In this document: positions 34,066 through 60,553 of the stretch, one piece after another
How positions within the stretch are numbered: position 1 is the first letter of the stretch
How the letters are laid out: each line of letters begins with the position of its first letter
NCBI RefSeq assembly: GCF_026967575.1
Contig: NZ_CP114054.1
Location: 1,302,001-1,366,000 of the forward strand
Direction: 5' to 3'
DNA length: 64,000 nt
From: Aurantiacibacter sp. MUD11
GTDB lineage: Bacteria > Pseudomonadota > Alphaproteobacteria > Sphingomonadales > Sphingomonadaceae
Notes under the pieces: model-generated
Database searches by the model: none
What the model was told of the DNA's origin: nothing
The model's input: the letters and a program-made list of their open reading frames with translations, nothing else
Position numbers and translations under genes: made by a program

Positions 34066-34138
34066 AACCCGGCTTTGGCCACGCGGCAAGGAACCCCATT
34101 GCGTCAGGCATCACCTTTCGCTAGACGCGCGGCCTTCC

Positions 34139-34212
34139 GGCCCGATGGCGGAGTGGTTACGCAGAGGACTGCAAATCCTTGCACGCCGGTTCGATTCCGG
34201 CTCGGGCCTCCA
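34139..34212 (+). tRNA. tRNA-Cys (anticodon GCA)
   Basis: The acceptor stem GGCCCGA (34139-34145) pairs with TCGGGCC (34202-34208). The anticodon loop CTGCAAA (34169-34175) gives anticodon GCA at 34171-34173. The T-arm is CCGG-TTCGATT-CCGG. The discriminator is T (U in RNA), as is usual for Cys, and CCA is encoded at 34210-34212. Confidence 0.95.
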
Positions 34213-34270
34213 CTTCCCCTGATTTACCGTTGCCCGTGGGCAGCGGCGAGATTAGGGGGCGCGTCGGATT

Positions 34271-34346
34271 GCCGCTTTAGCTCAGTTGGTAGAGCACATC
34301 ATTCGTAATGATGGGGTCACGTGTTCGAGTCACGTAAGCGGCACCA
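34271..34346 (+). tRNA. tRNA-Thr (anticodon CGT)
   Basis: GCCGCTT (34271-34277) pairs with AAGCGGC (34336-34342). The loop TTCGTAA (34302-34308) gives anticodon CGT at 34304-34306, reading ACG. The discriminator is A and CCA is encoded at 34344-34346. This tRNA marks the last clearly chromosomal feature before the island. Confidence 0.95.
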
Positions 34347-34371
34347 CCCTTCCTTCAAAAGTGTGCTCAGC

Positions 34372-34400
34372 CCCAATCTTCGCAGATTGGGACCGCTTTT
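34372..34400 (+). terminator. Terminator after tRNA-Thr
   Basis: The stem CCCAATCT / AGATTGGG with loop TCGC is followed by ACCGCTTTT. It lies 25 bases after the tRNA 3' end and would end the tRNA transcript. Confidence 0.7.
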
Positions 34401-34550
34401 CCTGCGCCTATTCCGTGACTTGTCTGCAATGGCAAGTTGTTGCTACTGCACCGAGACCTATCTGGCGCGGCGCATCACCCGCGAATACCCCAGTGTCTCA
34501 AGGCGCCAGAATCGTGGCACCAGTTGCAGACCTTGTTCGATGTGGTGCTT

Positions 34551-36128
34551 TCAGGAGAACCCGAGGAAAGTGCGCTGGCCAGCCCAGTCGAGGGGCAGCG
34601 CCGATGCGCGCAACAATCGGCGCCCCGTCAGTCCGACCGGCTGACGCCCTTCAATGATTGCCGTGGTGATGTCGGGTGCGAGCCATCCGATTCTGAGAAG
34701 CTGCCAAAGGTGGCGCTTGCTGTAATTGACTACGGTCGGCTCTTCGCTTCCCTGCATGATCATGCGTTGTGCAGAACGGGCCTGCGCAAGCAGCTTGATG
34801 AGAACTGGATCGGGATTACCGGCGACCGCGTTTCCATCAGGCGGCAGCTGCAGTTTCTTCTCGGCTCCGCGTGAGACAAGCATTGCTGGCAGGGCTGTAT
34901 GTAGAGCGCCCTCTCCATTGCCGAGAATCAGATCCTCGTTGGTGAGCTCAAACCGCAAATCATGTTCCAACAGGATAGCGCGCTGTTCAACCGTTGGCAG
35001 CGCCTTGAGGTCTGTCGCCAGCTCACCTCTCGCGGCAATTTCGTCAGCATCGCCTGCACTGTTCGATCGAAGCCATTTCGCTGTCAGACGGACGGCTGCT
35101 TTCTCAAGCTCCCCTGCAGGCACGCTCCATGGTGTGCCCCTCGTCTCGCCAGGCAGAAAGCGGGTCATGTAGTAGCGGTAGCAGCGGTGCCTTCTCGTCG
35201 TATGGCTTGGCGACATCGGTCGACCATCAGGATCGCTGATCATCCCGGTCAGCAAACTCGGGTTCCTTGCTCGCTTGCCAAGACGATGATCGCGCCTGTT
35301 CTCCTTGAGAATGGACTGGACCTGCTCAAACTGTTCTAGCGGGATGATCGCCTCGTGCTGTCCTTCGTAGACCTCTTCGTTGTGCCTGACCCTTCCGCTG
35401 TAGATAGGGTTCCTAAGCATGAGCGCGAGCATGCCTTTGGTGAACGGGCATCCGCCGACCGTCTTGCCGTTCTTGTATTTGCGCAGCTTGGTTCTTGCGC
35501 CCTTCGCGTCCAGCGCATCGACAACCTGCTGGACCGAGCGAAGCTCACAATAGGAATCAAAGATGAAACGGATCGTCTCCGCCTCGCCAGGTTCAATATG
35601 GAGCATCCGGTGTTCAACCCGGTACCCGAGCGGCACAGGCCCGCCCATCCACATGCCCTTCTTCTTGGACGCCGCGACCTTGTCGCGAATGCGCTCGCTG
35701 GTAACCTCGCGCTCGAACTGGGCGAAGCTCAACAATACGTTGAGCGTCAGTCGTCCCATCGAGATGGTCGTGTTGAATGCCTGTGTCACGCTGACAAAGG
35801 AGGCCTCCTGTTTATCGAGGATTTCGACGATCTTTGCGAAATCGGCGAGGCTGCGGGTCAGGCGGTCAACCTTGTAGACGACGATGATGTCGACCTTGCC
35901 CGCCGCTACGTCTGCAAGAAGCTGTTTGAGCGCAGGACGATCCATTGATCCCCCTGACCAGCCACCATCGTCGTAATGCTCTCCAACCTTCTCCCAGCCC
36001 TCGGCTGCTTGGCTCAGGATATAGGCAGCACAGGCTTCCTTCTGGGCATCGAGGCTGTTGAAGTCCTGCTCGAGTCCATCCTCGGTCGACTTGCGGGTGT
36101 AGATCGCACAGCGCTTCTTCTCAGCCAT
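34551..36128 (-). CDS. Large serine recombinase
   Basis: This 525-residue recombinase has a resolvase domain at residues 1-150: the nucleophile Ser in YTRKSTEDG, DIIVVYKVDRLTRSL and an EREVTSERIRDK segment. A recombinase domain (PVPLGYRVEHRMLHIEPGEAETIRFIFDSY) and a C-terminal DNA-binding part follow, but no clear four-cysteine zinc ribbon is seen. It integrates or excises mobile elements without host factors. Its 5' end overlaps the DUF2924 gene by 8 bases. The trio with DUF2924 and DUF3489 genes is a recurrent Sphingomonadales island module. Confidence 0.9.
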   Translation of the reverse strand: MAEKKRCAIYTRKSTEDGLEQDFNSLDAQKEACAAYILSQAAEGWEKVGEHYDDGGWSGGSMDRPALKQLLADVAAGKVDIIVVYKVDRLTRSLADFAKIVEILDKQEASFVSVTQAFNTTISMGRLTLNVLLSFAQFEREVTSERIRDKVAASKKKGMWMGGPVPLGYRVEHRMLHIEPGEAETIRFIFDSYCELRSVQQVVDALDAKGARTKLRKYKNGKTVGGCPFTKGMLALMLRNPIYSGRVRHNEEVYEGQHEAIIPLEQFEQVQSILKENRRDHRLGKRARNPSLLTGMISDPDGRPMSPSHTTRRHRCYRYYMTRFLPGETRGTPWSVPAGELEKAAVRLTAKWLRSNSAGDADEIAARGELATDLKALPTVEQRAILLEHDLRFELTNEDLILGNGEGALHTALPAMLVSRGAEKKLQLPPDGNAVAGNPDPVLIKLLAQARSAQRMIMQGSEEPTVVNYSKRHLWQLLRIGWLAPDITTAIIEGRQPVGLTGRRLLRASALPLDWAGQRTFLGFS

Positions 36129-37046: not shown

Positions 37047-38147
37047 ATGAGCGGGAAGATCGTCGACCTATTTTCTTGTGGCGGTGGAATGTCCTCCGGT
37101 TTCGTCAGTAAGGGCTTCGAGACGATTGGTGCGGTCGACCTTGAGGTCGCGAAGCCGAGCCACGGGATTGGTGCCACGTTCTGTAACGACACATACGAGA
37201 GAAACCTGGGCCTCAGGCCGATGTCTGCTGACTTGGCTGTGACTGGACCGGACGAGGTCGCATCCCACTTCGGGATTAAGCCAGGCAACGTCGACGTCCT
37301 CATCTCGTGTGCGCCCTGCACGGGGTTCAGCCAGAAGCAGAGTCGCAACCACAGCAAAGACGACAGCCGGAACCGACTGGTCGAGAGGACAGCTATATTC
37401 GCCGCCGCGTGGCGCCCCCGTTATGTGGTCATCGAGAACGTCAAGGAGCTTCTGCGCGGCAGGCACAAGCACCACTTCCAAGCCCTACACCGAGCCCTGA
37501 CCGACTCGGGCTACAACGTCTACGCTGAGATCCACGACCTAAAGAACTTCGGTCTACCCCAGAGCCGAATTCGGTCCCTCATCGTCGCGAAGCTTGGTGG
37601 CAGCTTTTATCTAGATCTGCCCGAGGTCGAGCCGAGGACGGTGCGAGACGCCATAGGGCACCTACCCGAGCTCGAGGCGGGCGAGACACATCCCGACGAC
37701 CCGATGCACGTGTGCCCTCGGATAGGCGGACATTCGCTAGAACGTATGAAGGCTATCCCAAGGGATGGCGGAAGCTGGACGGACCTCACTGAGGACCAGG
37801 CACACCTGCGAATTCCGAGTATGAACGTGGAAAAGCCAGGATCATTTCCGGATGTGTACGGCCGGTTGGCTTGGGACCGTCCCGCGCCAACTATCACCCG
37901 AGAGTGCAGCCATCCGGGAAACGGACGCTACAGCCACCCCGAACAGGATCGTCTGTTGTCGGTGCGTGAGATGGCGCTCCTGCAGGGCTTCGCTCCCGAC
38001 TACCAATTCGAAGGCTCGCTCTCGTTCAAATACAGGCAAATCGGTGATGCTGTACCGCCGATGATTGCGGGTATGATCGCCGAGGCAATAATCGAAGATG
38101 CCGAGGGTCGGGGCGCACTTCCGCCTCAGTTGCGGATGGCTGTTTAG
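37047..38147 (+). CDS. DNA cytosine-C5 methyltransferase (restriction-modification unit 1)
   Basis: This 366-residue methyltransferase has motif I DLFSCGGGMSSGF at residue 8, motif IV CAPCTGFSQ with the catalytic Cys, motif VI VIENVKELL, motif VIII QSRIRSL and motif X QIGDAVPPM. PCTGFS replaces the usual PCQxFS. It should methylate C5 of cytosine at an unknown site. It is convergent with and overlaps by 4 bases the 256-residue gene at 38144-38914, a probable cognate endonuclease. Confidence 0.92.
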   Translation: MSGKIVDLFSCGGGMSSGFVSKGFETIGAVDLEVAKPSHGIGATFCNDTYERNLGLRPMSADLAVTGPDEVASHFGIKPGNVDVLISCAPCTGFSQKQSRNHSKDDSRNRLVERTAIFAAAWRPRYVVIENVKELLRGRHKHHFQALHRALTDSGYNVYAEIHDLKNFGLPQSRIRSLIVAKLGGSFYLDLPEVEPRTVRDAIGHLPELEAGETHPDDPMHVCPRIGGHSLERMKAIPRDGGSWTDLTEDQAHLRIPSMNVEKPGSFPDVYGRLAWDRPAPTITRECSHPGNGRYSHPEQDRLLSVREMALLQGFAPDYQFEGSLSFKYRQIGDAVPPMIAGMIAEAIIEDAEGRGALPPQLRMAV

Positions 38148-38914
38148 CCTGGACGACTTAGACGCCACCAAGCATGAAACGAGCAAAGGCGGACGTCGAG
38201 ACCGGCGATTGTGACCTTTTCGACGCTTCCATCTAGGCGCAGTGTAAAGGCCTTTCGGCCGTTCACCATGACCTTTGCGCTGGTTCCTCCCGATCCTGAC
38301 AATGGTTTGAAGTCTGTCGACTTAAGGCTCTGGACCATCGCCAGCACTTTTTTCGGAATCTCGACCAAGTCGTAACGGATACTCTGCTCGTCCCCGTAGC
38401 TGCGAAGCATGAAGATGCGCTCGTACTCTCGCAAGTGTGAAAGGACCCTTTCTTGGACCTGTTTGGGAGCATTATGATGGCTGCCGAGATCCCGGATCCA
38501 GCGAGCCTCCATCAACTTCGAGATCGTGATTGACTTAGGGTTCAGTCCCTTCGCTGCCTCTGTCTTGAGCGAGTAATAGCGACCATCGACCTCCAAGTCG
38601 GCGCCACGGTGCGTCATGTTCTCGGTACGTTGTGCGCTGTGGCCAGACATCTTGAAGGAGTGCTCCAATATATGCTCGAAGTTCTCCTTCTTCAGGGCAA
38701 CGCCGCTCGAAGCATGATGCGCAGCCAAGCGGGTCGAGAAATACTCGAACGCCTGTGCGTCTAGAAAGTCCGTGCGCAGGTGTTCCCGCTCAATCTCTTC
38801 CGTGAACTTATCGACGATACCTTGGAGTACCTCGACCTGCATCGGGTTGAGTCGGCCTATCGCCTCGATAAGCTCTTTTCGCTTCGAATTGTCCTCAGAC
38901 AATTTGGACTCCAC
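38144..38914 (-). CDS. Probable type II restriction endonuclease (unit 1)
   Basis: This 256-residue protein has a PD-(D/E)XK-like core. Asp106 lies in THRGADLEVD, followed by a strand with SLKTEA at residues 115-120, giving a D-x8-S-x-K arrangement seen in some type II enzymes. Helices before it (residues 20-90) may bind DNA. The pairing with the convergent cytosine methyltransferase supports an R-M role. No family name can be given with certainty; it could be another type of nuclease. Confidence 0.6.
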   Translation of the reverse strand: MESKLSEDNSKRKELIEAIGRLNPMQVEVLQGIVDKFTEEIEREHLRTDFLDAQAFEYFSTRLAAHHASSGVALKKENFEHILEHSFKMSGHSAQRTENMTHRGADLEVDGRYYSLKTEAAKGLNPKSITISKLMEARWIRDLGSHHNAPKQVQERVLSHLREYERIFMLRSYGDEQSIRYDLVEIPKKVLAMVQSLKSTDFKPLSGSGGTSAKVMVNGRKAFTLRLDGSVEKVTIAGLDVRLCSFHAWWRLSRPG

Positions 38915-41444: not shown

Positions 41445-44414
41445 ATGCTGGAAAAGCTGAACGGGGCAATCAACGACATATTTCTCGGTGGACGCTTCGA
41501 ATCGCGTCCGCTGTATCTGGTCTTGGACAACCAAGGTCGCCAGCAGCTTGCCGCGGCACTCGGCAAGAGCCCAGACGACGTCGAGGAATATTGCTGCCGG
41601 GAAGTGGGCAACCACCTATCCCCCACCGGGGATCCGTACTCGGCTTTCGAGTCTGCTCTTTGGAGCTGGTCCCTCAACGGTCGCAAGTCACGCCCCCCCT
41701 TCACGTCCCTTCTCTTCGTGCTCTCCCATGCCGCCGAGCAAATGGTCTCCGACGGCGAGTTCTCGTCAGGCAACTATTATGAACGCCTCTCCGCGCTCGT
41801 AGGCCTCCCGGCCGACAAGCTATCACTGCACGGCAAGACCACCGAGCAATTCTGGCAAGCATTCAACGGTTGGCTGGCGAACAACGACTTCCTCTACGGC
41901 CGACCTACCGCCCGCGCCGTCAACAAGTTCAAATACGTCGGGATCGCCATGTCGCAGGCGATCGTGCGCGAAGCCGATCTCCTGCGATTTCACAAGCTGT
42001 TTGAAAAGTATGGTTTCACGGACACTGACGATGTCAGCGAGTCCGAGATCGAGCAGTACATCTCGACCTGGATTCGCAGCTCGCAGCCAACGAAACAGCT
42101 CAAGGAAGCATGGAAGAAGACAGAGCTTAGGCCGAGGATCTGCGAGGCCGCCGTGGAAGAGCTCAAGGAGTGGCAACAGGATGCTGCGGGAGGTGCACGC
42201 GAAGCGCAAACGGGTCCCCGGCGACTGTCGTTGGCACTGAATTTTCGCCACGACATTTTTGGAAGGTCCGCATCGGTCTACTTTGGACGCGAAAATGTGT
42301 CCGAACCAATTCCGCTCAACACGAGTGAAGGTACGGCAGTCGAGCTTTCAAATTCGACCTTCGGAGCCTTTGCAACCTTAGAGCCTCGCTCTGTTATCAA
42401 TATCGGCAACAGCCTTCTCCGAGGACTCGAGCTTTCCGTTGATGGCAAGCCCGCATTCACCTGGGGGGGGCGCGCAGCGATACCCCTTAGTCGTTCGGAC
42501 CAAGGCTATTGGACGGAGGTAAGTAGGGTTTCGCTCGGGATCCCACAACTTGTACTCGTCCGCGGCGACGGAAGGGTCCGCAGGGCAATCGAGGATGCTC
42601 TCGCAGAGGTTGCAGTACCGGGATACACGGTTTCGACGAGTGACAAGCTCAAGGGTCTTCCTGTCGGCTGGGTCTTGTACGAGAACGTGGTCGTCAAGAA
42701 AGCGCTAGCGCAATTGTCTGGTTTCGAGGCCGTCCTGTCTCCTGTTGGCGAAAGCGCGAGCTTGCGTTTCACTGGCGGAATGAAGCTCGGTCGGGGGATC
42801 TGGCATCTCTGGGTTCCTCCGGAGGTGTCGCTCGAGACAGCTAAGAGCGGTGTCGAAATCTTGGCGTGGGACGGGACTGGGCCAGACGGGGATCCCGTTT
42901 GCGAATCCCGCAGCGGCAGCACGTCAACTTCGCTTCGGTTGGAAGGCTGCATCCCCGATAGTGGCAACGTCTATCTCGAAGGGAAAGCCGGCAAGTCCGT
43001 CGTCGCGTCGGCAAGCATCCTGTTTCGCTCTGCGAACCGTCCGCGACCTCTAGATCGGCAAGGCCGTGGGGTCGTAGCGTACGCTGGTATCCTTTCGACC
43101 CAAGTCAATGGAGGCAATCAAGATTGCACGGTGCGCGGTCTTGTCTCGCCGAGACTAGAACCGAGAACGCTGAATCTCGATATATTGTTGCGTTTTCGAT
43201 CGCTTGACCAAGAGGTTGGTCGAGAAAAGCAGGAGGCCGAGACCGCGCCTGCTGGCACATCGGCCGACATCGAGTCGATAAGGGGGCTCAGTGTCGAAGA
43301 GGTGATGGCGTTGCCTTGCGCAGTGCGCGGCCTGCATCGCCTGGTTTATGCGCAAATCCCAAAGGATGCCTCGAAATCTGACCCAGTGGACGTCCATTGC
43401 GCTGACTGCGGCATTACGTTCGTGCATCGCAGGACGGACAAGGCGGTCAGGGTTCGTCGATCTCGTCAGCAGGTACCGGAAACACGACAACGCAGCGACG
43501 AGGTGGCGCACAAACCCGTTAACGTCGACCTCTGCTTGGACGGTGCGTGTTTTCTTGGCGCCGGCACTTTAGCCAGCTTCGAGACATTCGTCGCATCGCA
43601 AGACGTCGACACTTGGCGTGCTGGACGGGTCTTGCGAGATCTCGCCTGGTTGGGACATCTCGATGTCGAGACTACTTCGTCGCACCGGCCACGTTCATGG
43701 AGCATCTCGCCCCCGACAATCTCGTTTGTCTCGGACAAGAAGGCCGTCCTGACAGGTTATCGCAGCCGGAGCCTCGTGGCGAAAATCGAGGAGGTCGTTG
43801 TCGGTGTGGGTGGGCGCCTAGGCCGTGAAAAAAGGCGAGAACACGCAGAGATAATATCTGTCATCGGGCTCAAGGCGGCCGATTTGAGAGCAACCCTCAC
43901 AGACATAGACGACCCCCACGGGCGCGTGATCGAAGTCGTTGAGGAAGCCGCAAGCCAGCTCCTGGCTTTCATTGGCAAAGACCATGACCTCTCAACCATT
44001 TTCAGGCCAGTTACCCTTGGCTCGGGCCTGCCAATGCAGCGTTTTGATGTAGAAGCTAACAAGTGGCGCAACACGGACGAGTTGATCGGCGCCGGCGCGT
44101 ACAGGATCTCGGGTGCCGGCACGAGCTACGTGTTTCGCTCTCCTTCGGGAAAGGCGCATTCCGGCCCGCACGAACTCGTGAAACTCGCCGCCGCACGTGA
44201 AGCGGGGCTCAACCTGCATTCCTACGACGCCACTAGCGAAACCTTCCTATCGCGCCTTGGGTGCGAGCCGCCTGGGCTATTGGGGCGTGCACTAGTCTCT
44301 TGCAGCGGCGAGCTGCCAACAATCGAAGCAGGTACGTCCAAGTTCAAGAACGTCGGGCCAGCCATCGCGGCAAGGGTCCTGGAAATCCTATACGAGGGGG
44401 AGTTGCCGAAGTGA
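41445..44414 (+). CDS. Large protein of unknown fold, DruH-like partner of the helicase
   Basis: This 989-residue soluble protein starts after GAGGGGG. Residues 1-260 form a helical region with [56 protein letters not shown]. Similar segments occur, as I recall, in large helicase-linked defence proteins such as DruH. The middle (about 260-650) is beta-rich, followed by a CADCG knuckle at residues 652-656. The C-terminus looks like a small DNA-binding module. Its stop overlaps the next start (GTGA). A 1000-residue protein immediately before a DUF1998 helicase matches type III Druantia, but homology needs testing. Confidence 0.6.
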
Positions 44415-47400
44415 CAGGGCCAAAGACACCTGTAGCCTTCATGGATTATGTCCGCGAGGCCTACTTGCGATACTACGATTCCGCCTTCTGGATGCGCGAC
44501 GAAGCCATAATGCAGGAACGCAAAGAGCTGCTCTTGGAGCCAGGCGTCATGGCGCAAGAGCTACTCTTGGAAGCCGTGCCCGTTTACCCCTCGGAGGTAC
44601 CGGTAGAGGCGGCTTGCGAAAAAGCTGGCCTATCCAGTCATACTGGACAGAAACTCGGCCCCATCGTGTTCGGACGCGATGATATCAAGCTTCGCCGACA
44701 CCAAGCCGAGTCACTAGAATACGCGCTCGCTGGCGACAGCGAGGGACGAAAGAACGTCGTTGTGACCTCGGGTACGGGCTCGGGAAAGACAGAGAGCTTC
44801 CTCCTACCGTTGCTTGCTCGCCTTATCGAAGAGCGGTCAACCTTGCCTGGTGGGATGGACATCAACCCGTGGTGGGAAAAGCAACTCGGTAGGAGCGATG
44901 ATTGTTGGAAGCACCTGCGCAGCACCGGTGAACCCAACATAGATCCCGCGGTTAGAGCACTAGTTCTCTACCCCACGAACGCGCTCGTCGAAGACCAAGT
45001 GTCGCGCCTGCGCCAAGCTGCAATTAGGGGTAAAGAGCTCCTCGGCTCGCCGCTGTTCTATTTCGGACGATACACTGGTGCGACCCCCGGTGGCACGAAT
45101 TTCCCACCGGCAAAGCTGCTCGCAGACGACCGGAAACGCGTGAATAGCCTCGCGCGCGAGATCAAGGACATAGCACGAGAAACGCGCGACCTTCGCGCAG
45201 CCATCGAGGCAGATCCAGATAGTGTCGAGGACCGCGTCGAAGCCATCGCGCAATTCTCCGACCCGTACTGCGGCGAAATGTTGACTCGCTGGGACATGGT
45301 GGCAGCCCCACCCGATATCCTCATCACTAACACGAGCATGCTCAACATCATGCTCCTGCGCGATATCGAGGCGCCGATCTTCAAAAAGACGCGCGACTGG
45401 TTGAAGAAGGACTCCAGCGCGACATTCACGCTCGTTGTTGACGAGCTTCATGGTTATCGAGGCACGCAGGGCACAGAGGTCGCACTTGTCGTTCGCAACC
45501 TTCTCGATCGACTTGGCCTCGACCAGGACTCCGACCAACTCCGGTGTATCGGTACTAGTGCATCGCTAGATGGAGTTAGCGGCAAGGAATACCTCGAACA
45601 GTTCTTTGGCGTTGATCGCTCGACCTTCGTCATCTTGCCAGGTGAGCCCCGCCCATTCGAAATGCAAATGCCGATCGAGCAAGACGTCTTGCTGCAGCAC
45701 CACGACGACCTCCTGTCGGAAGACCAAGCGATAGCCACGAAAGCAGCTGCAGAGGTTTCACGACGGCTTTCGCCCCGTGAAGCGCTAGCGTCAGCCTGTC
45801 GCGTTGCCGGCACGAGGACCGATGGCCCCGTCCGTCCCTCGCGAATTTCGGAGATCGAGAAAGCCCTCTTCGGTGAGACGGCCGACCCAAAAGCACTCGA
45901 AGCGCTTCTCTCTGCTGCCCAGCATGAAGACCGGGGGTCGTGGGAAGCCCCTAAACCCTCCTTCCGGTCACACGCGTTCTTGCGCCAAGTCCAAGGCATG
46001 TGGGCTTGCTCAAATCCAGATTGTACCGAGCTCGACGAGAAGTTCCGCACCCAAGAGCGCAAGATCGGTAGACTCTTCAAGTCACCGGCCATCAAGTGTG
46101 GCTGCGGTGGCCAAGTCCTCGAACTCATGTACTGCTATGATTGCGGCGAAGCCTTTCTTGGCGGTTTCGTCCTGCACCAGCCTGATGTCGAGGTAGACGG
46201 CGGAGCATTCCTACAATCAACTCGCCCTGGCAGCGGCCTCGTGCCCCCCGGCATGGTTTACGAGCGACCACACAAGCAATTCAGGTGGTATTGGCCTGGA
46301 GGGGCGATGCACTCTGGCCTACAACCTTGGACTCATCAAAAGCAAAGCGGCAGCGGGTCACACACGTTCTCGTTCGGGGCAGGCAAGTTTGATCCGAAGC
46401 TCGGCTTGTTGCAGCGAGCCGAGGGGGAAGAAGATCGGACTGGCCTGATCTATTGCCCACCTGCTGACTTGGACTCGGTTGCGGGACTGCCCGAGTGTTG
46501 TCCGCGCTGCGAGAGCGAGAAGAAGTGGTTCAATAGCCAAGACCTCGAGGGCTTCTACTCGGGGACCGTTCAAACGCCAATCCGCGGCCTCCGCACGGGT
46601 TTGAATGCAACGACGCAACTGGTTGCCGACAGGTCTGCGGTTGCAATCAGCGCGGATGGTTCACCGGAAAAGATGATAGCGTTCACCGATAGCCGTGACG
46701 ACGCTGCGGACCTCGCCGCCGGCCTTGAACTCTACCACTTCCGCGACCTCGTCAGACAGCTAGTCCAGTCCTCGATGACCCCGACCGAGGTCCCCTCCCG
46801 AGACAAACTCATCGAGGTCGCAAGAGAGGTCGGTGGGAGTGAGCCATCGGGCGAGAGCGCCACGATCAAGGAGCTTGCCGAGTCCGCAGCCCCTGGAAGC
46901 TGGAAAGCTGCCAAGCTTTTTAGCGCCGGGATTGCAGACCCGGGAGACATCGAGATCCTCGAGCACCTCGAGGCCGCCAGCCATGCAACTGGAAAGAGCT
47001 GGTCATCCCTCGTCACCTCGCTCCGCGACCAGATGGTCTCAAAAGGCATAAACCCTGCGGGCCCGGAATTTCACCTCCAGAAGTTCTCGAAAACACCCTG
47101 GTGGAAGTTCTTTCCAAGGCCCACAGGCGCGAATTGGGAAGAGTTGAGTTCCGAACACAAGCAACAAGGGCTCGACCATTTCACGTCGAAGTGCGCCGCC
47201 AAGATCGCACTATCGCTCTTTGACCGGGCTGGACGGGATATCGAGTCCATGGGCTCCGGCTACATCGGGGTCATGGGCGATCACTCGCAAGCTCTTGGGC
47301 TACCGCGGGAACAGGCGGATGGCCTACTTGCAAACGTCGTGCGATTGGTTGGCCATGCAAAGCTGTTTTCCGGGAGCGGGAAATACCGCGGCGTCGATAC

Positions 47401-49888
47401 TTGCCCACCTGACGCGCGGATTTACATCGAGAAAGTAGCGGCCGCGACGGGCAAGGCCCCCGAAGATCTCACCGAGAAAGTGCGAGAAAGGCTCGCCGGG
47501 CTCGGGATAATCAACGAGAATTGGATCCTCGAGACTAGCGACGTCTCGGCTTCAAAACTTGAAATTAGGCCTGCCGGCGATCTCAAGCCGATGCGCTGCA
47601 AAGAGTGCTCACGCATCGGCCTAGTGTTCCCGACTACCGTTTGCACCACGCCCCATTGCAGGTCTCGCAACTTCGAGGTCGTCACCTCTGTCGGTGAAGA
47701 CTACTACTCGTGGGCAGCACGCGAGAAGCCTCACCGGCTGTCTACATGGGAACTCACCGGTCAAACGAAGCCGCTTAGCGAGCAAAGGCGCAGGCAACGC
47801 TTGTTCAAGGCGCAGGCCTTCATCGACGAGGAAACAGAGCTAACCCACGGCATCGATGCGTTGTCCGTTACCACGACGATGGAAGTCGGTGTAGACATCG
47901 GCTCGCTAAAGCTCGTGATGATGGCGAACATGCCTCCCCAGAGGTTCAACTACCAACAGCGAGTTGGCCGTGCTGGCCGACAGGGACAGGCCTTTTCTTA
48001 CGCCGTGACGGTTTCGCGAGGCGCCGCGCACGACGACTATTACTTTAACAATCCAGAACGAATGACTGGGGATGTTCCCCCGCAGCCACGCCTTGATCTC
48101 GGCCGTGCCGAGATCATGCAACGCGTCGCCACCGCGGAGTGCCTTCGCCGGGCATTCGGCTCACTTGGAGAAGAAAAGCCTGCGCGTAGCGCAGAGAGCA
48201 CGCACGGCGCCTTCGGACGCGCCGAGGATTGGCCAGAGCGTTATCGGGACATGATTGCAGATTGGCTCGCGAACGACCCGCAGGTGGACGGCGTCGTCGA
48301 CAGGTTAGCGGTAAAGTCACCGCTCGAAGCTAGTGCAGTCGACGCGGTACGTAGCTACCTAAGGGAACAGCTTGTCTCGGATATCGACCAGGCAGTTGCT
48401 GACCAGCGATTCATCCAGGACGAATTGAGCTACCGGCTGGCCGTCGCTGGGATCCTGCCCATGTTTGGCTTCCCGACCCAAGTCAGGTCGCTGTTCCACG
48501 ACAAGACGGGCGCGAGGAAAGCCGATGACCTTGTAATCAGCGACCGCCCGCTTGATCATGCCGTCTGGGCGTTCTCCCCCGGCGCCGAGATCCCGAAGGA
48601 CAAGCAGCTCTTCACGGCATATGGCTTTGCCGTGAAGCGCGACGGTTTCCAGGGGGTTGGCAACGAGCAAAATCCGTTGGGTCCTTCGCTGCGGTACACG
48701 CGTTGTATCGATGCCGATTGCGGCGCGATTTCCCACGGGAACGCGGAGCAATGTGCCGTTTGCGGAAACGAGAGCCTCGATTTCCCACTCTTCCAACCAC
48801 GCGGCTTCATGGCGTTCTGGAAAACTAGGGACTACGACGGCCAGCGAGCTCGGGGGCCAGCCTTGCCGCCTCCCGTCATGTCTTTCGAGCCCGAGTACTC
48901 GACTGAGAAGGCTGTTGGCCCCTTACAGCTCTCGTTCAAGAAAGACGCGATCGCACTCGTCAACGATAACGAGGGTAAGCTCTACGACTTTGCACGGGGC
49001 GAATTTGACCGCGTGATGGTCAAGGAGATTTCATACCGAGACCGTGACGTCGCGGACGCCGTGAATAACTTGGAGGTAATCGAGAGAGGTGCAATCGGTG
49101 CCGTCTTTACGACTGACGTCATGAGCTGTGTCTTCGCAGGGACTGGAGCAGTCGGCGGAATCGGGAAAAACGGAGTTCTCGACGTAGACCAAGTCTCTAC
49201 GCGCCCGGCGCTCGCGTCTTTCGCAGAGTTCCTTAAGCAAGCCGTGGCATTTGAACTAGACGTATCGCCAGATGAATTCAGAGTTGGTCGCCAATTGCTC
49301 TTGCTCGATGAAACGCGGACCGAGCAAATCTTTCTTGCTGATGCCCTCGAGAACGGTGCTGGCTACTCCCGGATGGCCGCTGCACCCGAAACCCTCAGGA
49401 CTTGGCTTGACACCCACTATCAACGGGAGAAGACGCGATGGCAATCGCCTTCACACTCCCGTGACTGTGACCGGTCTTGTCCAGACTGCCTACGCAACTA
49501 CGGCAATCGCTTCACGCATGGCTTGCTAGATTGGCGGCTCGCGCTCGATCTCGCGGAAATCGCCTTGGGACACGAGCTCGACGAGAGCCGCTGGTTGAAG
49601 GGCAAAGATGATCCCATCGTGGCCGCATTCGAGAAGCTTGCTCAGCAGGTCGGTCTCGAGGTCGAGATCGACGAGCATTCCGGCCTGGTGACGATAGCTC
49701 GAGGCGAACACGCCTTGGTACTTTCGCACCCACTTTGGCACTTTGAAGAGGGGCTACTCCAGCCAAGGCAAGAGGCCGCGCGCCACTCGTTGTTATCTGA
49801 CCTCGGGCCCCACGCGATGGTCCGGTTTGTCGACGCCCGCGACTTCGCTGCGAATCCAGCTACTCAACTCGTAAGGCTCCGGGGATGA
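44411..49888 (+). CDS. Giant DEAD/DEAH helicase with DUF1998-like C-terminus (DruE-like)
   Basis: This 1825-residue SF2 helicase has Walker [12 protein letters not shown] at residues 117-127, motif II DELH at about 343, FTDSRDDA at about 757, VGVDIG at about 1158 and [10 protein letters not shown] at about 1182. Cysteine clusters lie at about 533-578 and 1060-1080 and in [13 protein letters not shown]. The C-terminal [27 protein letters not shown] (about 1685) is the DUF1998-type zinc motif. Size and motifs match DruE of Druantia. The start is GTG 44411, overlapping the preceding stop; the stop overlaps the next ATG. Confidence 0.85.
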
Positions 49889-51861
49889 TCGAGGTAATCG
49901 GCATTCCGGGTAGCCGCGAATTCGAGGTGGCAAATCACTTCCGTGAAGTCTTCGCATCGCAATGGCCAGGGCTGGCAGAGAGCCCGGCAATTGAAGAACA
50001 CGTCAAGATAGCCGCGAACGCGAAGCTGTCAGGTGGACCCGTCAGCGACATCGACGTGGTGATCGCGGCTGTCTTTGCTCGCTCAAGGCATTATGCCGTG
50101 CGGCGACCGACAAAGGATCGTGAAGGCAAGCACGTTTCCGGCGTGAAAGTGAGGGTCAAGAGCTTCGTCTGCGCAGTCGAAGTGAAGTCGCAAGACGGGA
50201 GCGGCATTTCCATAAACGGTGACGAGATCAACGTGCGCTACCGGGGGCGATGGAAGAGCGCGACGGAACAGAACGTCAAGCAAGTCCACGCTCTAAAGGC
50301 AGCGTTCGAAAACCAGCACCTGAGTTGCTTTGTCTATCGCTGCGTCGTCCTCGATGGGATCGATGAGCTACCGAAAATAGCTGGACGCCCGCAACCAGAT
50401 GCCGGTGCTGTTGCCGGTGGCTTTAAGGCAGGCGAGTTCCTGTCAGCCGTGGCAGGAGTGTACGGCCTATACCGATACAAGGGTGAATACTCGATCTCGT
50501 CTGGCAAGCCGGAAGATATTAGAAAGGCCCTCGAGGCCCCGATTTTCCGCGGGATCGTGCCGACGAGGTTGGATCGTCAGAAGATGGACCGGATCGCCGC
50601 TAGGCGGCCAGAGTCCATTGAGATCGCAGCCAAGTTAGGGGAGCAGCGAGTTCACATCCGCGGGCATGGCGGCACCGGTAAGACCGTGATGATGTTGCAA
50701 GCTGCCCACGAGGCTTTCGAACGCCATGGAAAGCGATGCCTAATCCTAACTTACAACAATGCCCTCGCCTCGGACATCCGACGAAGCCTAGCCATGCTGG
50801 GGGTCCCATCGTTCGGAGATGGAGGTGGCGTAGAGGTGCGAACCGCAATGTCCTTCACATACTCGTGGCTTTCTCGGCTCGGTGTCAGCAGCCCAGAAGA
50901 GAAAGGCTCTTACGAGACTTACGAACAAGAATGCAGTGAAGCCCTGGAGCTCATACGCGCAGGAGCGATAACAAGAGAAGACATCGCAGCGGTCCTCAAT
51001 GCAGATCTCGATCGCTTCGATGTAGACGTAATCATCGTAGACGAGGCACAGGACTGGCCTCAACCGGAAGCCCAACTGCTCTCCGCTCTTTACGGAGGTC
51101 AGCGAATTTCAATCGCCGATGGTCGCGAGCAGCTCCTCCGCGGGCGCCCCACGAACTGGTCGAAGACGCTTGGCGAAGGGCACGAGGCAACCGAGCGAAA
51201 CTTGTCTCGGTGTCTTCGCATGAAAAAGAACCTCGGCATTTTCGCCAACTCTGTTGCTTCAGAAGCCGGGCTGAACTGGGAAGTTGAACCCAACGACGAG
51301 GCCGCGGGAGGGAAGGTCATATTGCTTGAAGGGCAGTACGGGGAAGACCCTTCCTTGGTAAGCGAGCTAGTCAAAGTAGCGAAGCGCGATGGCAACGACC
51401 TGGTCGATTTCCTCCACTGCGTCCCCCACTCGGCAGTGATTGAGATCGATGGCCACCGCGAGAGCGATCTCTCGAGATTGCTGATCGAACAGGGCTATGA
51501 GACCTGGGATGCCGTCGACGAGGTCGTTCGACAGGATTTCCCACGCTCCAATTCCCAGTTCCGCATCGTGCAATACGAATCAAATAGGGGTTTGGAGGGC
51601 TGGGTAACTGTCCTTGACCGATTTGACCTTGCAATCGCCAATCGCGAAGACTGGGAGCTTCGACGAGTGAACGCCAGCGACGATTCTACTGACCCTGTTC
51701 GAAGGGCAAGGAACGCGGCCTGGAGGTGGGCAATGATCTCTTTGACGAGGCCAATTGATACGCTCGTGATTTCACTTGGAGACAAGGATAGTGCCGCGGC
51801 AAATCTCTTGAAGCGAGTAGCCTCGATGCACGAGGATTTCGTCGAGTTCTACAACCGCTAG
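49885..51861 (+). CDS. PD-(D/E)XK nuclease fused to a UvrD-like SF1 helicase
   Basis: This is a 658-residue two-domain protein. Residues 1-180 contain a nuclease core with Asp55/Asp57 (SDIDVV) and Glu99-Val-Lys101 (VEVKSQD), as in PD-(D/E)XK or NERD-like domains. The helicase domain has Walker A GHGGTGKT at about 259-266, [15 protein letters not shown] and motif II DEAQDW at about 386. A final [14 protein letters not shown] corresponds to motif VI. It should unwind and cut DNA. ATG 49885 overlaps the DruE-like stop by four bases, so it is translationally coupled. Confidence 0.85.
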
Positions 51862-51865
51862 GCTC

Positions 51866-52438
51866 ATGGCAGACACCTATAAGCGGCTCCGCCTTTCACC
51901 CGAGATCTTGGAGGATGCACAGTCGAGGGCCGATGCGCTGCCCGTCTTTGAATACTCACATCGCGAACGCGATGCGAACATCATTGGTTGTATCGGGGAA
52001 GTCGTGTTTGAGCGTTTCCTCGAGCACTTCCAGGTCCCGTTCGAAAACCGAACAGAATTGACCGACCACGACTATGTCGTGAACGGCCTAAGATTAGACG
52101 TGAAGACAAAGGACCGGACGGTGCTCCCGCGTCGAAATTACGACAACTCGGTCCCACTGTACAACCACGAGCACCAGCGTCCTGATTTCTACTACTTCAT
52201 CTCCCTGTATAGAGACGCGTCTGAGCCCGTATCGACGTTGGGAAGATTCAAAGAAGCTTACATTGTTGGTGGGATCGATATCTCGTCTCTCGATGCCCAC
52301 GGGACTACCTGGGACACCGGACAAGTAGATCCCGACAACGGAACCAAGTTTTGGACCTCATGTATCAACGTCACCATGGCGCAGCTGCTTTCTAACAGCG
52401 AGATGTTGCAGGTACTTCGCGGCGACGCCAAGCTCTAG
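51866..52438 (+). CDS. Small PD-(D/E)XK nuclease-like protein
   Basis: This 190-residue protein has Glu45 (GEVVFERF), Asp69 (DHDYVVNGLRLD) and Asp78-Val-Lys80-Thr-Lys82, which fits E-x(n)-D-x(n)-(D/E)-x-K nuclease cores. It starts 4 bases after the nuclease-helicase stop and closes the operon. No other domain is visible. It could be the effector nuclease of the system or an inactive binding partner. Confidence 0.65.
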   Translation: MADTYKRLRLSPEILEDAQSRADALPVFEYSHRERDANIIGCIGEVVFERFLEHFQVPFENRTELTDHDYVVNGLRLDVKTKDRTVLPRRNYDNSVPLYNHEHQRPDFYYFISLYRDASEPVSTLGRFKEAYIVGGIDISSLDAHGTTWDTGQVDPDNGTKFWTSCINVTMAQLLSNSEMLQVLRGDAKL

Positions 52439-52573
52439 CCATTTAGTGAGAGAGAGACGGGCTTCGTTAGATCACGGGTTGGTTCAGCAGATCGAGACCG
52501 AAGCGCTTAACGACGTGGTCACAGGCTCCATCGCGAGCCCAAGCTCACACAGTATCCTTGTGCATGCACCCTG

Positions 52574-53572
52574 TTGCGCCCCGGAAAGAGCCTGATAAGT
52601 TCGGCCTGCATCAAGGGGAAGTCATTGAAACATCTGATCGAAGAGCTTGATAGCGAGGATTGGCACACCGCCGCGTCGGAAATCCAAATTTACCTGCGCG
52701 GCAAGCTGCTTGGTAGTGACGGCCTCATAAAGAGTGTGCGTTCAACATTGGACGACGAGCGGCAGGAGAGGACCGAAGCCTGCAAGCGAGACTTTGCAGC
52801 CAAGAATGACCTCGACGGTCTAGACGACCGGGTGAACGAGTTCCTCTCGACGCTCAAGACGATCAACGACCGAGTCCAAGACGAGATCTATTTTGACTTT
52901 CCCGTGAACGCGCAAAGGATCAAAGACCTATTGCCGTTGGAAGAGGGTCTCGAACAGATATTTGCCCACGTTCTAGAGCCAAATGAACTGTCACCCGTTG
53001 CTCAATTCAGGCTGAATGCGATCCTCTGCCGAGTCCTCAATGCCAGCCTTGGACAATCGAACAAGAGCAATGCCGGTAACGCGGGAGAGTTCATGGCGGA
53101 GGCCATCCTGAATGCCGCTGGCCTTACGGAAGGAAGAGACTATCGGAAACAATACAAGTCGAAGAAGGGGTCTGACACCGACTACGTGATTCCCGCGGTC
53201 GATGACTTCAGAGATCATGAAGTCGACGCGTTCATCGCGGTTCAGATCTCGACAAACGACCGAGCCCGACTAGCCTCAAGCGAGCTAAAGACAGGTGCTA
53301 AGAAATACCTGGTCACCGGTAACGGGACCGATGCCGCCTCCAAAGCCCTCAAGGACATTGGGTACCAGATCATTGCTGACTATCGGGAAAACTTGGTCCT
53401 CATCGTCTGCCACGCCGCCGAGATCGAGCGAGAAAAAGCCCGTCTCAGGTCGAAGTTACGGGCCAATCCAAGAGACGAGGAAACTCGTAGCCGCCTCGAG
53501 TACGTGGCCAATCTAACCCTGTCGTTCGAGGCATTCGCGAAACGCATGCGCGACAACTTCGCCAAGCCTTAG
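52574..53572 (+). CDS. Probable type II restriction endonuclease (unit 2)
   Basis: This 332-residue protein has a long helical N-terminus and a C-terminal core with GNAGEFMAEAIL (Glu172, Glu176), KKGSDTDYVIP (Asp201, Asp203) and FIAVQISTNDRARL. The spacing is that of PD-(D/E)XK type II enzymes, with Gln224 where the E/D of the motif is expected. It precedes a cytosine methyltransferase by 87 bases. The start is a TTG at 52574; another TTG at 52625 with an AAGGGGA site is possible. Confidence 0.6.
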   Translation: MRPGKSLISSACIKGKSLKHLIEELDSEDWHTAASEIQIYLRGKLLGSDGLIKSVRSTLDDERQERTEACKRDFAAKNDLDGLDDRVNEFLSTLKTINDRVQDEIYFDFPVNAQRIKDLLPLEEGLEQIFAHVLEPNELSPVAQFRLNAILCRVLNASLGQSNKSNAGNAGEFMAEAILNAAGLTEGRDYRKQYKSKKGSDTDYVIPAVDDFRDHEVDAFIAVQISTNDRARLASSELKTGAKKYLVTGNGTDAASKALKDIGYQIIADYRENLVLIVCHAAEIEREKARLRSKLRANPRDEETRSRLEYVANLTLSFEAFAKRMRDNFAKP

Positions 53573-53659
53573 GAAGCGGTCGCGACCAGCGACGAATGGT
53601 GTGTGAATCTGCGGCTCCCTCGGTTGACTTTGGGCCTGCAATCGGGCCCTTCAGTACTC

Positions 53660-55048
53660 ATGCAAGCTAACAATCTCGGCCCGACCATGATCGACCTCTT
53701 CGCAGGTTGCGGAGGGCTTTCGCTAGGCATGGAAAATGCTGGCTTCACCCCGGTGTTCGTGAATGAGCTTAACGAGCACGCCATGGAAACTTACCTCGCA
53801 AATCGGCATCACGAGGTTGGCGGCAAGCTCTTCCGAGACCAAGATCACTTGCGCTGCAATGATGCGCACGAACTGGAAGGCGAGCGGCTTGAAAAGCTTG
53901 TCAGGGACCTTTCAGAGGTTGGGATCACTTTCCCCACGAAGGAAGAGGCTGACGCGGGCAATGGGGGCAGCAGCCTCGAACTGCTCGCAGGAGGCCCCCC
54001 CTGCCAAGGGTATTCGGGGATCGGCCATCGCCGTTCCTACTCCGTAGATAAGAAGGACATTCCTTCGAACCAGCTATACCAGCGCATGTCGGCAATTATC
54101 CGCCGTGTCCGCCCAAAGGTATTTCTCTTCGAGAACGTGCGTGGACTCCTGTCTGCCAAGTGGACAAAGGAAGGAGGCCGGAAAATCTGGCCAGATGTGC
54201 TGGACGAGTTCCGGAGTATACCTGGTTACGAGGTTCGATGGTCGCTTGTTAGGGCCGGAGATTACGGTGTTCCGCAAAACCGTCCGCGTGTCCTGCTCGT
54301 CGGAATTCGCGATGACTTGGTCGAGGGTAACTCGGTCATCGACATTGCTGCTGACGAGGAAGACGCAGTCGCGTGTGGGTTCCTCCCTAAAGGTGAGCCA
54401 TCAGATTGCCCAGGCCTTGAGGAATTGTTGGGGGATCTTGAAGACCCCAGGGTCAAAGACGTTCTCAAGAGTGGAGACTATCCCAAGGGTAAATTCGAGA
54501 CGACAGAATACCCCTCTCCGCCAGCAACAGAGATGCAACGCAGGATGCGTGCCCCTGCAACTGGGAGCGCTAGCAACGTGCCCGTGACGCTCACTGACCA
54601 CGAGTACTCCAAGCACGGCATGAAGATCGTCGAGAAATTCTCCTACATGATCCGAAACAACGGCGAGATTCCCGACTGGGCCAAGACCAAGAAATTCGCC
54701 CAGAGGGTGCTCCCGAGGACGTGGGGCAATCGGGGGCCGAGCATCACCGCGACATCCCTGCCCGATGACTACGTTCACTTTTCACAGCCGCGTTCGTTGA
54801 CCGTCCGCGAGTGGGCACGGCTCCAACTGTTCCCTGACTGGTACGTCTTCAAGGGCAAGCGGACTACCGGGGGCATTCGCCGCGCAGGCAATCCCCGGGA
54901 GGGGGTCTTTGACCGCGAGGTCCCAAAGTACACGCAAATTGGCAATGCCGTACCAGTTGGCTTGGCGGAGCGTGTTGGCAATCACTTCAGGAAGGTCCTC
55001 GAAGATGCCGAGGCGCGAGTCGACGAGAAGAAGGCCGAAGCTGCCTGA
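53660..55048 (+). CDS. DNA cytosine-C5 methyltransferase (restriction-modification unit 2)
   Basis: This 462-residue methyltransferase carries motif I IDLFAGCGGLSLG, motif IV GGPPCQGYSG with the catalytic Cys, motif VI LFENVRGLL, motif VIII QNRPRVLLVG and motif X QIGNAVPVGLA. A long target-recognition region lies between VIII and X. The start is ATG 53660 or GTG 53603. Its 3' end overlaps the glycosylase gene by 44 bases. The site is unknown. Confidence 0.92.
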   Translation: MQANNLGPTMIDLFAGCGGLSLGMENAGFTPVFVNELNEHAMETYLANRHHEVGGKLFRDQDHLRCNDAHELEGERLEKLVRDLSEVGITFPTKEEADAGNGGSSLELLAGGPPCQGYSGIGHRRSYSVDKKDIPSNQLYQRMSAIIRRVRPKVFLFENVRGLLSAKWTKEGGRKIWPDVLDEFRSIPGYEVRWSLVRAGDYGVPQNRPRVLLVGIRDDLVEGNSVIDIAADEEDAVACGFLPKGEPSDCPGLEELLGDLEDPRVKDVLKSGDYPKGKFETTEYPSPPATEMQRRMRAPATGSASNVPVTLTDHEYSKHGMKIVEKFSYMIRNNGEIPDWAKTKKFAQRVLPRTWGNRGPSITATSLPDDYVHFSQPRSLTVREWARLQLFPDWYVFKGKRTTGGIRRAGNPREGVFDREVPKYTQIGNAVPVGLAERVGNHFRKVLEDAEARVDEKKAEAA

Positions 55049-55766
55049 TCCGCTCTGGACTCCTGCTGGCCAAGACCAGCTGAAAACAGGTGAGAAGCTC
55101 AAGCTTACGCGGTTACGCAAGGACCTCTTAGACTGGATGGCCGAGCATGGGCGGCACTTCCCATGGCGTTCATCCTCGGCTGGAACTTACGAGAAGATCG
55201 TCGTCGAGGTGCTCCTCCAGCGCACCACCGCCAGCGCGGTCGCCAACTTCTATTCTTCCTTCTTCGAGAGGTTTCCCACGTGGGAAGACCTCGCGGTTGC
55301 CGAGCCCGCCGATCTAGAACATTTCCTGAAGCCGCTTGGTCTTTGGCGACGGCGGGCGCAGTCGCTCATCGGACTTTCTCGCTATGCAGCCTCGAGGTCC
55401 GGCGATTTCCCGGCAGATCCAGAAGGGCACCGTGATATTCCCGCAGTCGGGCAATACGTCTCTAACGCGATCACCATCTTCCAACATGGAAAGCCGGCGC
55501 CACTCCTAGATACAAACATGGCGCGGGTTATTGAGCGGTTCGTTAGACCGCGGCGGTTGGCTGATATTCGTCACGATCCGTGGCTACAGAAAGCCGCGCA
55601 TTGGTATTCTCGGTGCGCGAATCCGGCAGAGGCAAACTGGGCTATCCTCGACTTCGCGGCTCTCGTCTGCAAAGCGCGGAATCCGAATTGCGAGAAGTGC
55701 CCCGTGCGGAATCGATGTAACTATCGCCTTGGCCGCAGGCGTAGTTCGAGGCGCACTAAAGGCTAA
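55005..55766 (+). CDS. HhH-GPD DNA glycosylase with [4Fe-4S] cluster (MutY/Mig-like)
   Basis: This 253-residue protein of the endonuclease III/MutY superfamily has EVLLQRTTASAV near the N-terminus, the helix-hairpin-helix IPAVGQYVSNAI, the catalytic Asp in LLDTNMARV and a cluster C-x6-C-x2-C-x5-C at the C-terminus. Genes of this type next to cytosine methyltransferases, such as Mig of Methanothermobacter, remove T from T:G mismatches left by 5-methylcytosine deamination. That role is inferred here from the overlap with the methyltransferase. A MutY-like adenine glycosylase is the alternative. Confidence 0.85.
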   Translation: MPRRESTRRRPKLPDPLWTPAGQDQLKTGEKLKLTRLRKDLLDWMAEHGRHFPWRSSSAGTYEKIVVEVLLQRTTASAVANFYSSFFERFPTWEDLAVAEPADLEHFLKPLGLWRRRAQSLIGLSRYAASRSGDFPADPEGHRDIPAVGQYVSNAITIFQHGKPAPLLDTNMARVIERFVRPRRLADIRHDPWLQKAAHWYSRCANPAEANWAILDFAALVCKARNPNCEKCPVRNRCNYRLGRRRSSRRTKG

Positions 55767-59983: not shown

Positions 59984-60553
59984 TCATTCCTCCTCCGGGT
60001 TTGCCGTGCCGAGCTCGATACCCCTGACCCAGCGCTTCCGGCCGACCTTGCACTCGTGCAACGAGATGAAGAGGTCCCGCGAAGAACCCAGAAGCGCCAT
60101 CCACTGTTCGACCAACCAGGGTTTGATGAACAGGCTTGTGCGCCAGAGCGGCTCGCCCTTCGCCTTGTCGAGAACGCCGAGCCCATCCGGCGGTTTATAG
60201 ACGGGCACTTCCCTCCCCCGATAAGTTCGGAAGCGCGGCGCACCATGCTTGTCGAGCGCCGTGATGTCCGCCAGCCTTGCATCGAGATCGCGCGCAGGAG
60301 ATGCCTCGCCGTAGAGCGTGATCTCGCAGCAATCGTCTTCCCGCTCCTCGGGCGCGGTTATCCTGCCCCGGACAACCAGGGCATTGCGGAATTCGTAGAC
60401 GGGCTGGTCGTCCAGCGTTTGGAAGGCGTATTGCGGCTCGTAGGCGTAGTGATTGACCCTCGCAGAAACAGATGCCTCACAATCCTCCATCACGATGGAC
60501 AGGTGCGTATGCACTTCTGCAGTGGCGCGCTTTCGTCTTCCGGGTCCTGGCAT
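59984..60553 (-). CDS. Hypothetical protein (189 aa)
   Basis: This soluble protein starts at ATG 60553 (MPGPGRRKRAT). It contains beta-rich segments such as EVHTHLSIVMEDCEASVSARVNHYAYEP and FRNALVVRGRITAPEEREDDCCEITLYGE. No motif is recognised. It lies between the secreted protein and the integrase on the opposite strand, a common spot for island accessory genes. Confidence 0.6.
   Translation of the reverse strand: MPGPGRRKRATAEVHTHLSIVMEDCEASVSARVNHYAYEPQYAFQTLDDQPVYEFRNALVVRGRITAPEEREDDCCEITLYGEASPARDLDARLADITALDKHGAPRFRTYRGREVPVYKPPDGLGVLDKAKGEPLWRTSLFIKPWLVEQWMALLGSSRDLFISLHECKVGRKRWVRGIELGTANPEEE

Follow-up and report, generated by a model that had tools for sequence, protein, structure and literature searches.

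A Druantia-like gene set in Aurantiacibacter sp. MUD11 with DruF-DruL, DruE and a putative NERD-like superfamily 1 helicase

Background

Four closely spaced genes of Aurantiacibacter sp. MUD11, located in a 64,000-nucleotide stretch (contig NZ_CP114054.1, positions 1,302,001 to 1,366,000; hereafter the window) of a complete genome of 2.79 Mb, raise the question which defence system they encode and which of their products would cut DNA. A sequence-only reading saw in them a pair resembling DruH and the giant helicase DruE of Druantia type III, and proposed a Druantia-related anti-phage system extended by two nuclease genes, or else a distinct system. DruE is the sole component common to all Druantia types and a helicase-nuclease according to a 2026 study of type III, where it acts on intermediates containing single-stranded DNA (PMC13192584; papers are cited here by PMC number and from excerpts). 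For DruE of types I and II an inactivated Vsr nuclease has been reported (PMC12458937), which raises the question what cuts the DNA in these types.

Genes 1 to 3 are best explained, on the basis of their sequences, as an anti-phage Druantia of an undescribed variant, an explanation that we hold with middling confidence together with the mechanism proposed below. The variant consists of DruF and DruL in one protein (DruFL), DruE and a NERD-like superfamily 1 (SF1) helicase, has no DruG, and often lies near a cytosine-methylase restriction unit. Its observed basis is the composition of the locus, the overlapping genes, the recurrence in other genomes with matching distances, and the kept nuclease and helicase motifs.

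Results

Genes 1 and 2 by profile

The open reading frames (ORFs) of the first three genes overlap by 4 bases at both junctions (GTGA at 44411-44414, ATGA at 49885-49888) and gene 4 follows gene 3 after 4 bases, just as the sequence-only reading had described. The latter spacing suggests that gene 4 is co-transcribed with gene 3 in the window.

Gene 1 matches two DruF2 models of PADLOC, PDLC00023 over residues 4-963 (E 1.6e-111) and PDLC00016 over nearly the full length (E 1.8e-106), and its residues 718-983 match DruL4 (PDLC00057, E 2e-15). Each of the 11 PADLOC families matched at E up to 1 is a DruF or DruL, and no DruH model is found at this threshold. Because the DruF2 match is nearly full length and the DruL match falls into the C-terminal part, gene 1 is by these profiles a fusion of DruF and DruL, putatively the sensor or adaptor of the system. 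Other loci possess druF and druL as separate adjoining genes, e.g. L058, L064 and L068. Gene 1 has no Pfam match, and its profile has 0 matches among the solved structures of the Protein Data Bank (PDB) at E up to 1.

The highest score of gene 2 is that of DruE2 (1425 bits, residues 6-1823), followed by DruE4 (1335 bits), DruE1 (570 bits) and DruE3 (356 bits). DEAD, Helicase_C and the MrfA zinc-binding domain (MZB) exceed the Pfam cut-offs, and PDB entry 9wae_A is matched with E 2.4e-139. By profile, gene 2 is thus a DruE helicase of the DruE2/DruE4 type. Pfam detects no nuclease domain in it, and the DruE C-termini of its clade, in an alignment judged by eye, possess an HPLW motif throughout and no recognisable catalytic set. 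DruG (PDLC00024) has no match anywhere in the whole genome at E up to 1; DruD is absent from the PADLOC matches of genes 1, 3 and 4 and from the best 25 of 40 for gene 2.

Gene 3, a putative NERD-like SF1 helicase

Gene 3 contains an SF1 helicase core with weak PADLOC matches to GajB, Nhi and a NERD+UvrD model, and its profile matches DNA helicase IV in the PDB (E 1.3e-6). The hallmarks of SF1 helicases are a Walker A GKT, a DExQ motif II and conserved arginines in the C-terminal motifs. Walker A GKT and DE.Q (D386, E387, Q389) are present in all 92 gene 3 homologues, R568 in 90 and R622 in 88 of them. In the N-terminal part, D57, E99 and K101 are jointly kept in 86 of the 92, and Q133 is conserved as well. 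Five of the remaining six have no residue at one or several of the three positions (L027, L028, L064, L075, L083), most of them being broken or cut by a contig end and L075 also having N at 99; in L109, R replaces K101.

These features point to an SF1 helicase with a putative N-terminal NERD-like nuclease, the nuclease part being read from conserved motifs and not from an above-threshold Pfam match, and gene 3 would be the effector of the system. Several results weigh against the nuclease assignment. NERD (Pfam PF08378) scores 19.7 bits in gene 3, below its cut-off of 22.1; it is matched by two of 40 homologues at E 0.01 and by six of ten N-termini at E 1, and a profile comparison of the N-terminus with two true NERD domains is not significant (probability 4%).

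An assignment to DruG or to any other established Dru protein was rejected for gene 3, since no Dru model is found for it; nor does one occur in the 25 of 29 families listed for 40 aligned homologues. The open-licence literature, as far as its excerpts go, reports no SF1/NERD helicase in Druantia; publications beyond this scope, the original Druantia paper among them, may show it. In the excerpts of PMC12458937, NERD appears for TALON.

Recurrence of gene 3 with DruE

Genome contigs were scanned with five aligned gene 3 proteins, by which 118 relatives were confirmed and the best 80 kept. The fetched loci of 57 of the 80 also contain DruE, which here belongs to at least three lineages; in 44 of the 57, gene 3 lies within 200 bases of it. 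In nine of the other 13, the interval to DruE holds nothing but druF/druL or a gene in their place; in L061 there is one gene more, L076 has the gene 3 homologue on the opposite strand with a 951-amino-acid (aa) ORF in between, and the distance to DruE is 501 bases in L027 and 302 bases in L059. Viral contigs hold six gene 3 loci, four of them with DruE.

The order of genes 1 to 3 recurs in one DruE clade at 20 further loci, namely on Shinella and Alisedimentitalea plasmids, in G164 and at 17 more (gene 1 is present as two ORFs in L034), so the arrangement is not due to chance. In a FastTree phylogeny built from 78 DruE sequences, with SH-like support values of local scope and with program warnings about uneven composition and about long rows such as L069 and L034, the DruE of the window falls into a separate clade of 24 rows with a support of 100, nearest to rows from Sphingomonas and Erythrobacter. 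Gene 3 is present in 23 of these 24 rows, with a split copy in L027 and L014 as the exception. A second clade of 27 rows, with gene 3 in 26, carries DruD (type I DruD1 model, E 1.2e-168 for L033) and a gene of about 950-980 aa of no assigned family. In a third set, druF and druL are apart and gene 3 lies before druF (seven rows) or after druE (L065, L107); its sources are Chlorobi, Anaerolineales, Synergistetes, Acidobacteria, planctomycetes and others.

Within the clade of the window, an in-frame start codon of gene 3 occupies the position of the 4-base overlap in 18 of 22 loci, two of which (L021, L022) have an additional ATG at -1, and stands at -1, +1, +1 and +2 in the other four; L014, which lacks gene 3, and L027, where it is broken, are not part of this count. 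The pairwise distances of DruE are correlated with those of gene 3, at a Mantel r of 0.97 in the 22 loci of the window's clade, 0.96 in 26 loci of the DruD clade and 0.90 in 13 other loci, and none of 5000 permutations reaches the observed r in any set.

Loci without gene 3

A number of observations weigh against the variant proposed above. Among the 23 of the best 80 loci without DruE, 14 have less than 6 kb on one or both sides, and the other nine have at least 6 kb on both, so the gene 3 helicase also lives apart from Druantia. The presence of gene 3 changes at least six times across the DruE tree; r falls to 0.79 over all 61 loci, although again none of 5000 permutations reaches it, and joint transfer would equally produce such distance correlations. 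The counts of 23/24 and 26/27 are inflated, as gene 3 served as query in fetching most of the loci.

Other surveys started from the DruE or DruFL side. With gene 1, a DruF profile or a DruFL alignment, sought in 298, 385 and 396 genomes plus plasmids, five intact DruFL-DruE loci were detected; four possess gene 3 (window, L005, L006, L009), and L014 is an intact pair without it. Two more loci have DruE or both genes broken (L008, L010). DruFL loci sought without a gene 3 query occur in two of the 396 genomes of the order, the window's own and a known broken copy, and gene 1 alone against the genome contigs matched 17 stretches, none of them a relative. The DruE2 profile, applied to 398 genomes of the phylum at E up to 1e-100, yielded five loci, with gene 3 in two (window, G990), none in two, and a different NERD-UvrD protein (NERD 36.3 bits) in G932. 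On plasmids, gene 2 matched 28 records at E up to 1e-30, of which 15 were examined: two carry gene 3, 12 are without it (the upstream side of L119 and L120, both among these 12, is cut by the record start), and one, from Deinococcus, has a different NERD-UvrD protein (NERD 35.7 bits).

Since these surveys recover druE loci without it, gene 3 belongs to particular Druantia lineages and not to all; a role as universal Druantia component was rejected because 12 of the 15 plasmid druE loci lack it. The broken loci L008 and L010 are copies of the window's system in two genomes of the same family: in one, DruE stops after about 245 residues, and in the other, all that remains is the last part of DruFL and the first part of DruE. 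In two other DruE branches, a different NERD-UvrD protein with NERD above the Pfam cut-off lies downstream of DruE (L101, 13344-14957; L118, 15146-16867). The two suggest that NERD-UvrD proteins may have been paired with DruE on several occasions; a very distant shared ancestry is conceivable.

The NERD-SF1 helicase could instead hitch-hike with Druantia in defence islands, either as a self-sufficient defence gene comparable to Nhi or to a lone NERD helicase, or as a helper in DNA repair. Such independence would agree with the weak matches to Nhi, GajB and the NERD+UvrD model, with the nine well-flanked loci devoid of DruE, with the Druantia loci devoid of gene 3 and with the repeated changes on the tree, but the conserved druE-gene 3 overlaps, the spacing of the two genes (within 200 bases in 44 of 57 loci, with solely druF/druL or a gene in their place intervening in nine more) and the matching distances exceed mere co-location in an island. 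We therefore regard hitch-hiking as rather unlikely, and as the best placed of the rival explanations.

Gene 4 and the adjoining restriction-modification unit

Gene 4 has no Pfam match. Nine aligned sequences, gene 4 and its relatives, share invariant G44-E45, H68-D69 and K80 plus a (D/E)-(V/I)-K motif, which we take to be a PD-(D/E)XK signature; the matches of the profile to solved structures are at chance level (E 0.76 or worse). The domains named by the sequence-only reading are thus borne out above Pfam cut-offs for the helicase of gene 2, while the nuclease parts of genes 3 and 4 are seen as motifs without an above-threshold Pfam match.

Relatives of gene 4 adjoin helix-hairpin-helix (HhH) glycosylase or MvaI/BcnI restriction endonuclease genes in L011, L021, L022 and L110, the last of which shares the gene block of L022 and is probably not independent. 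Further relatives, 39-46% identical, occur in the viral contigs L111-L116. Within the fetched flanks, gene 4 is found in three of the 24 loci of the window's DruE clade (window, L021, L022). A place in the Druantia core was rejected on account of this low count and of the relatives at MvaI/BcnI units or in viral contigs; from the same neighbourhoods, gene 4 is probably an accessory of the adjoining restriction unit. The extension by two nuclease genes, as read from the sequence alone, consequently holds for gene 3, given its recurrence alongside DruE across many genomes, and not for gene 4.

Downstream of gene 4 follow a restriction-endonuclease-like gene, a C5 methylase and an HhH-GPD glycosylase (Table 1). 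Matches of at least 450 bits to this methylase are present in 12 of the 24 loci of the window's clade, the window included (11 of 23 without it), vs none of 27 in the DruD clade (Fisher p 1.7e-5, uncorrected for phylogeny and with a threshold chosen post hoc). Weaker matches (61-166 bits) occur in L005, L026, L030 and L069; outside the clade, L058 has a partial match of 304 bits. The 11 other methylase loci contain an MvaI/BcnI-type restriction endonuclease in eight cases, one of them a piece at a contig end (that of L021 is MvaI_BcnI by Pfam, E 4.8e-60), and a glycosylase homologue beside the same methylase in six (L006, L015, L018, L021, L022, L025). The methylase lies upstream in L016, L019 and L024, there at the edge of the stretch, and is reversed in L018 and L029. 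As position and strand vary, the unit travels with the system without being fixed in the operon. Gene 4, the restriction endonuclease, the methylase and the glycosylase would thus form an accompanying restriction-modification unit, whose glycosylase likely repairs deaminated methylcytosine and whose cytosine methylation may also mark self DNA.

A single DISARM-like system comprising the whole block 41445-55766, with self DNA marked by cytosine methylation and every nuclease directed at unmethylated DNA, appears improbable. The contrast of 12/24 vs 0/27 and the inclusion of the methylase DruM in Druantia type II (PMC8565338) would fit it, but half of the clade has no such methylase within the fetched flanks, its position and orientation differ between loci, and it is often accompanied by its own MvaI/BcnI endonuclease, enough for an independent unit. 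Profiles, moreover, rank the methylase as generic type II (E 2.6e-72) above DruM2 (E 2.7e-53). The original reading as type III Druantia plus two nucleases, in which a large protein of no assigned family precedes a giant DUF1998-type helicase, can be dismissed, at the level of profiles, with near certainty: the helicase is indeed DruE and the relation to Druantia stands, but gene 1 matches DruF/DruL and no DruH, and DruE3 trails DruE2 by far (356 vs 1425 bits).

Setting of the locus

The features of the region are compiled in Table 1. GC content is 0.535-0.598 from 34 kb onward vs 0.624-0.682 upstream (2-kb windows), in agreement with the lower-GC island noticed earlier; the two restriction-modification units noticed with it (37047-38914 and 52574-55048) are present as well. 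The lower-GC stretch begins directly past the tRNA-Cys and tRNA-Thr genes and contains the serine recombinase and the tyrosine integrase; the tRNAs and recombinase at the GC drop and the integrase at 60 kb are possible borders of mobile islands. No 14-base repeat of the tRNA region 34100-34560 is present in the remainder of the window downstream. In the restriction-modification unit at 37047-38914, methylase and SmaI-family endonuclease are arranged tail-to-tail with a 4-base overlap. Scans of 40-56 kb for promoters (3 sites, shuffle mean 4.2) and terminators (11 sites, shuffle mean 15.3) are uninformative, as both yield fewer sites than the shuffles.

Table 1. Features of the Druantia-like locus and its surroundings (positions within the window).
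Feature	Position	Strand	Basis
Gene 1: DruF-DruL fusion by profile, 989 aa, ATG start	41445..44414	+	PADLOC DruF2, DruL4
Gene 2: DruE by profile, YprA-family superfamily 2 (SF2) helicase, 1825 aa, GTG start	44411..49888	+	PADLOC, Pfam, PDB
Gene 3: SF1 (UvrD/GajB-like) helicase, putative N-terminal NERD-like PD-(D/E)XK nuclease, 658 aa, ATG start	49885..51861	+	Motifs, homologue loci
Gene 4: small PD-(D/E)XK-like protein, 190 aa, ATG start	51866..52438	+	Motifs in 9 aligned sequences
Restriction-endonuclease-like protein	52574..53572	+	Pfam: RmuC 27.1 bits; EcoRII-C 22 bits, below cut-off
C5 cytosine methyltransferase	53603..55048	+	Pfam DNA_methylase E 1.5e-54
HhH-GPD base-excision glycosylase; true start probably internal to ORF	54909..55766	+	Pfam HhH-GPD E 6.6e-16
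C5 methylase, second restriction-modification unit	37047-38147	+	
SmaI-family restriction endonuclease, second restriction-modification unit	38144-38914	-	
tRNA-Cys and tRNA-Thr genes	34139-34346		
Large serine recombinase	34551-36128		
Tyrosine integrase	60056-61309		

Related gene sets

A second undescribed Druantia-like set, mostly from alphaproteobacteria, consists of the gene of about 950-980 aa, DruD, DruE and the NERD-SF1 helicase (L032, L033, L035-L043, L045-L047, L050-L054, L063, L072, L074, L088, L102, L104, L105). Its 950-980-aa gene has no PADLOC match in L033 and L036 and no Pfam match in L033, and lies beyond the contig end in L072. L007, a Sinorhizobium medicae plasmid, contains a remnant of this set, with an IS3-family transposase gene inside the DruE region and a short gene 3 homologue. 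Three loci from Bacteroidales and an Erysipelothrix metagenome-assembled genome (L073, L085, L094) have the order NERD helicase, gene of about 1070 aa, DruE; that gene has no PADLOC or Pfam match in L085. L078 has a gene 3 homologue without DruE and a DpdF-like/C3a193 helicase nearby, which hints at another helicase pairing.

Discussion

Proposed mechanism

In the proposed DruFL-DruE-NERD helicase variant, DruFL would sense infection or license DruE, a role like the one proposed for DruH in type III. DruE would load on single-stranded parts of replicating phage DNA and unwind it, and the NERD-SF1 protein would cut in trans and degrade the DNA opened by DruE. The cut is assigned to the NERD-SF1 protein because the DruE of this branch possesses no recognisable active nuclease. 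More tentatively, and short of the confidence placed in the variant itself, the NERD-SF1 protein could be an unrecognised third core component and the true effector in a large share of Druantia, namely in at least three lineages whose DruE is reported or presumed to be without a working nuclease; the two helicases would then act as one machine, with an SF2 opener and an SF1 cutter. A NERD-SF1 partner that overlaps druE and recurs in several lineages would offer a direct and easily tested answer to who cuts the DNA, and would provide annotation tools with a missing gene.

Comparison with known systems

Druantia type IV comprises DruE, DruF and DruL in PADLOC (PMC8565338) and has neither DruM nor DruG. 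All three are found here by profile, DruG is absent genome-wide and a methylase is near. In contrast to type IV, DruF and DruL form one protein, a NERD-SF1 helicase follows DruE, and the DruE of the window scores slightly higher as DruE2 and falls into its separate, well-supported clade. Type II (DruM, DruF, DruG, DruE) is resembled in the best models, DruF2 and DruE2, and in the close C5 methylase, which is separated from the core by two genes, but DruG has no match here; in the scanned plasmid loci L126 and L127, which have a different, separate DruF2 model, DruE falls elsewhere in the tree and no gene 3 is present. Type III (DruH, DruE) shares the giant YprA-family helicase DruE, but DruH is lacking in the present locus.

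Nhi, which is NERD plus helicase, and GajB of Gabija are linked to gene 3 by weak profile matches in the helicase core; gene 3 differs in being coupled to DruE, and GajA is not among the PADLOC matches listed for genes 1 to 4 and ten neighbours. TALON (ARMADA-like YprA helicase, NERD nuclease, TPR-CSD, TBP) likewise combines a YprA helicase and a NERD nuclease in one system (PMC12458937), but the NERD-like domain is here joined with an SF1 helicase in one protein, and DruF-DruL takes the place of the partner. ARMADA type II (BrxHII-like, PglX-like, YprA-like and RelE-GajB-like helicase) has as its last component a fusion of a GajB-like helicase with a RelE-like RNase (PMC12458937). The nuclease of gene 3 is NERD-like instead of RelE-like, and neither BrxHII nor PglX is among the matches listed for the ten scanned neighbours. 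Both systems nevertheless pair a YprA helicase with an SF1 GajB-like helicase bearing an N-terminal nuclease, putative in gene 3, and ARMADA type II may thus represent a parallel use of an SF1 partner.

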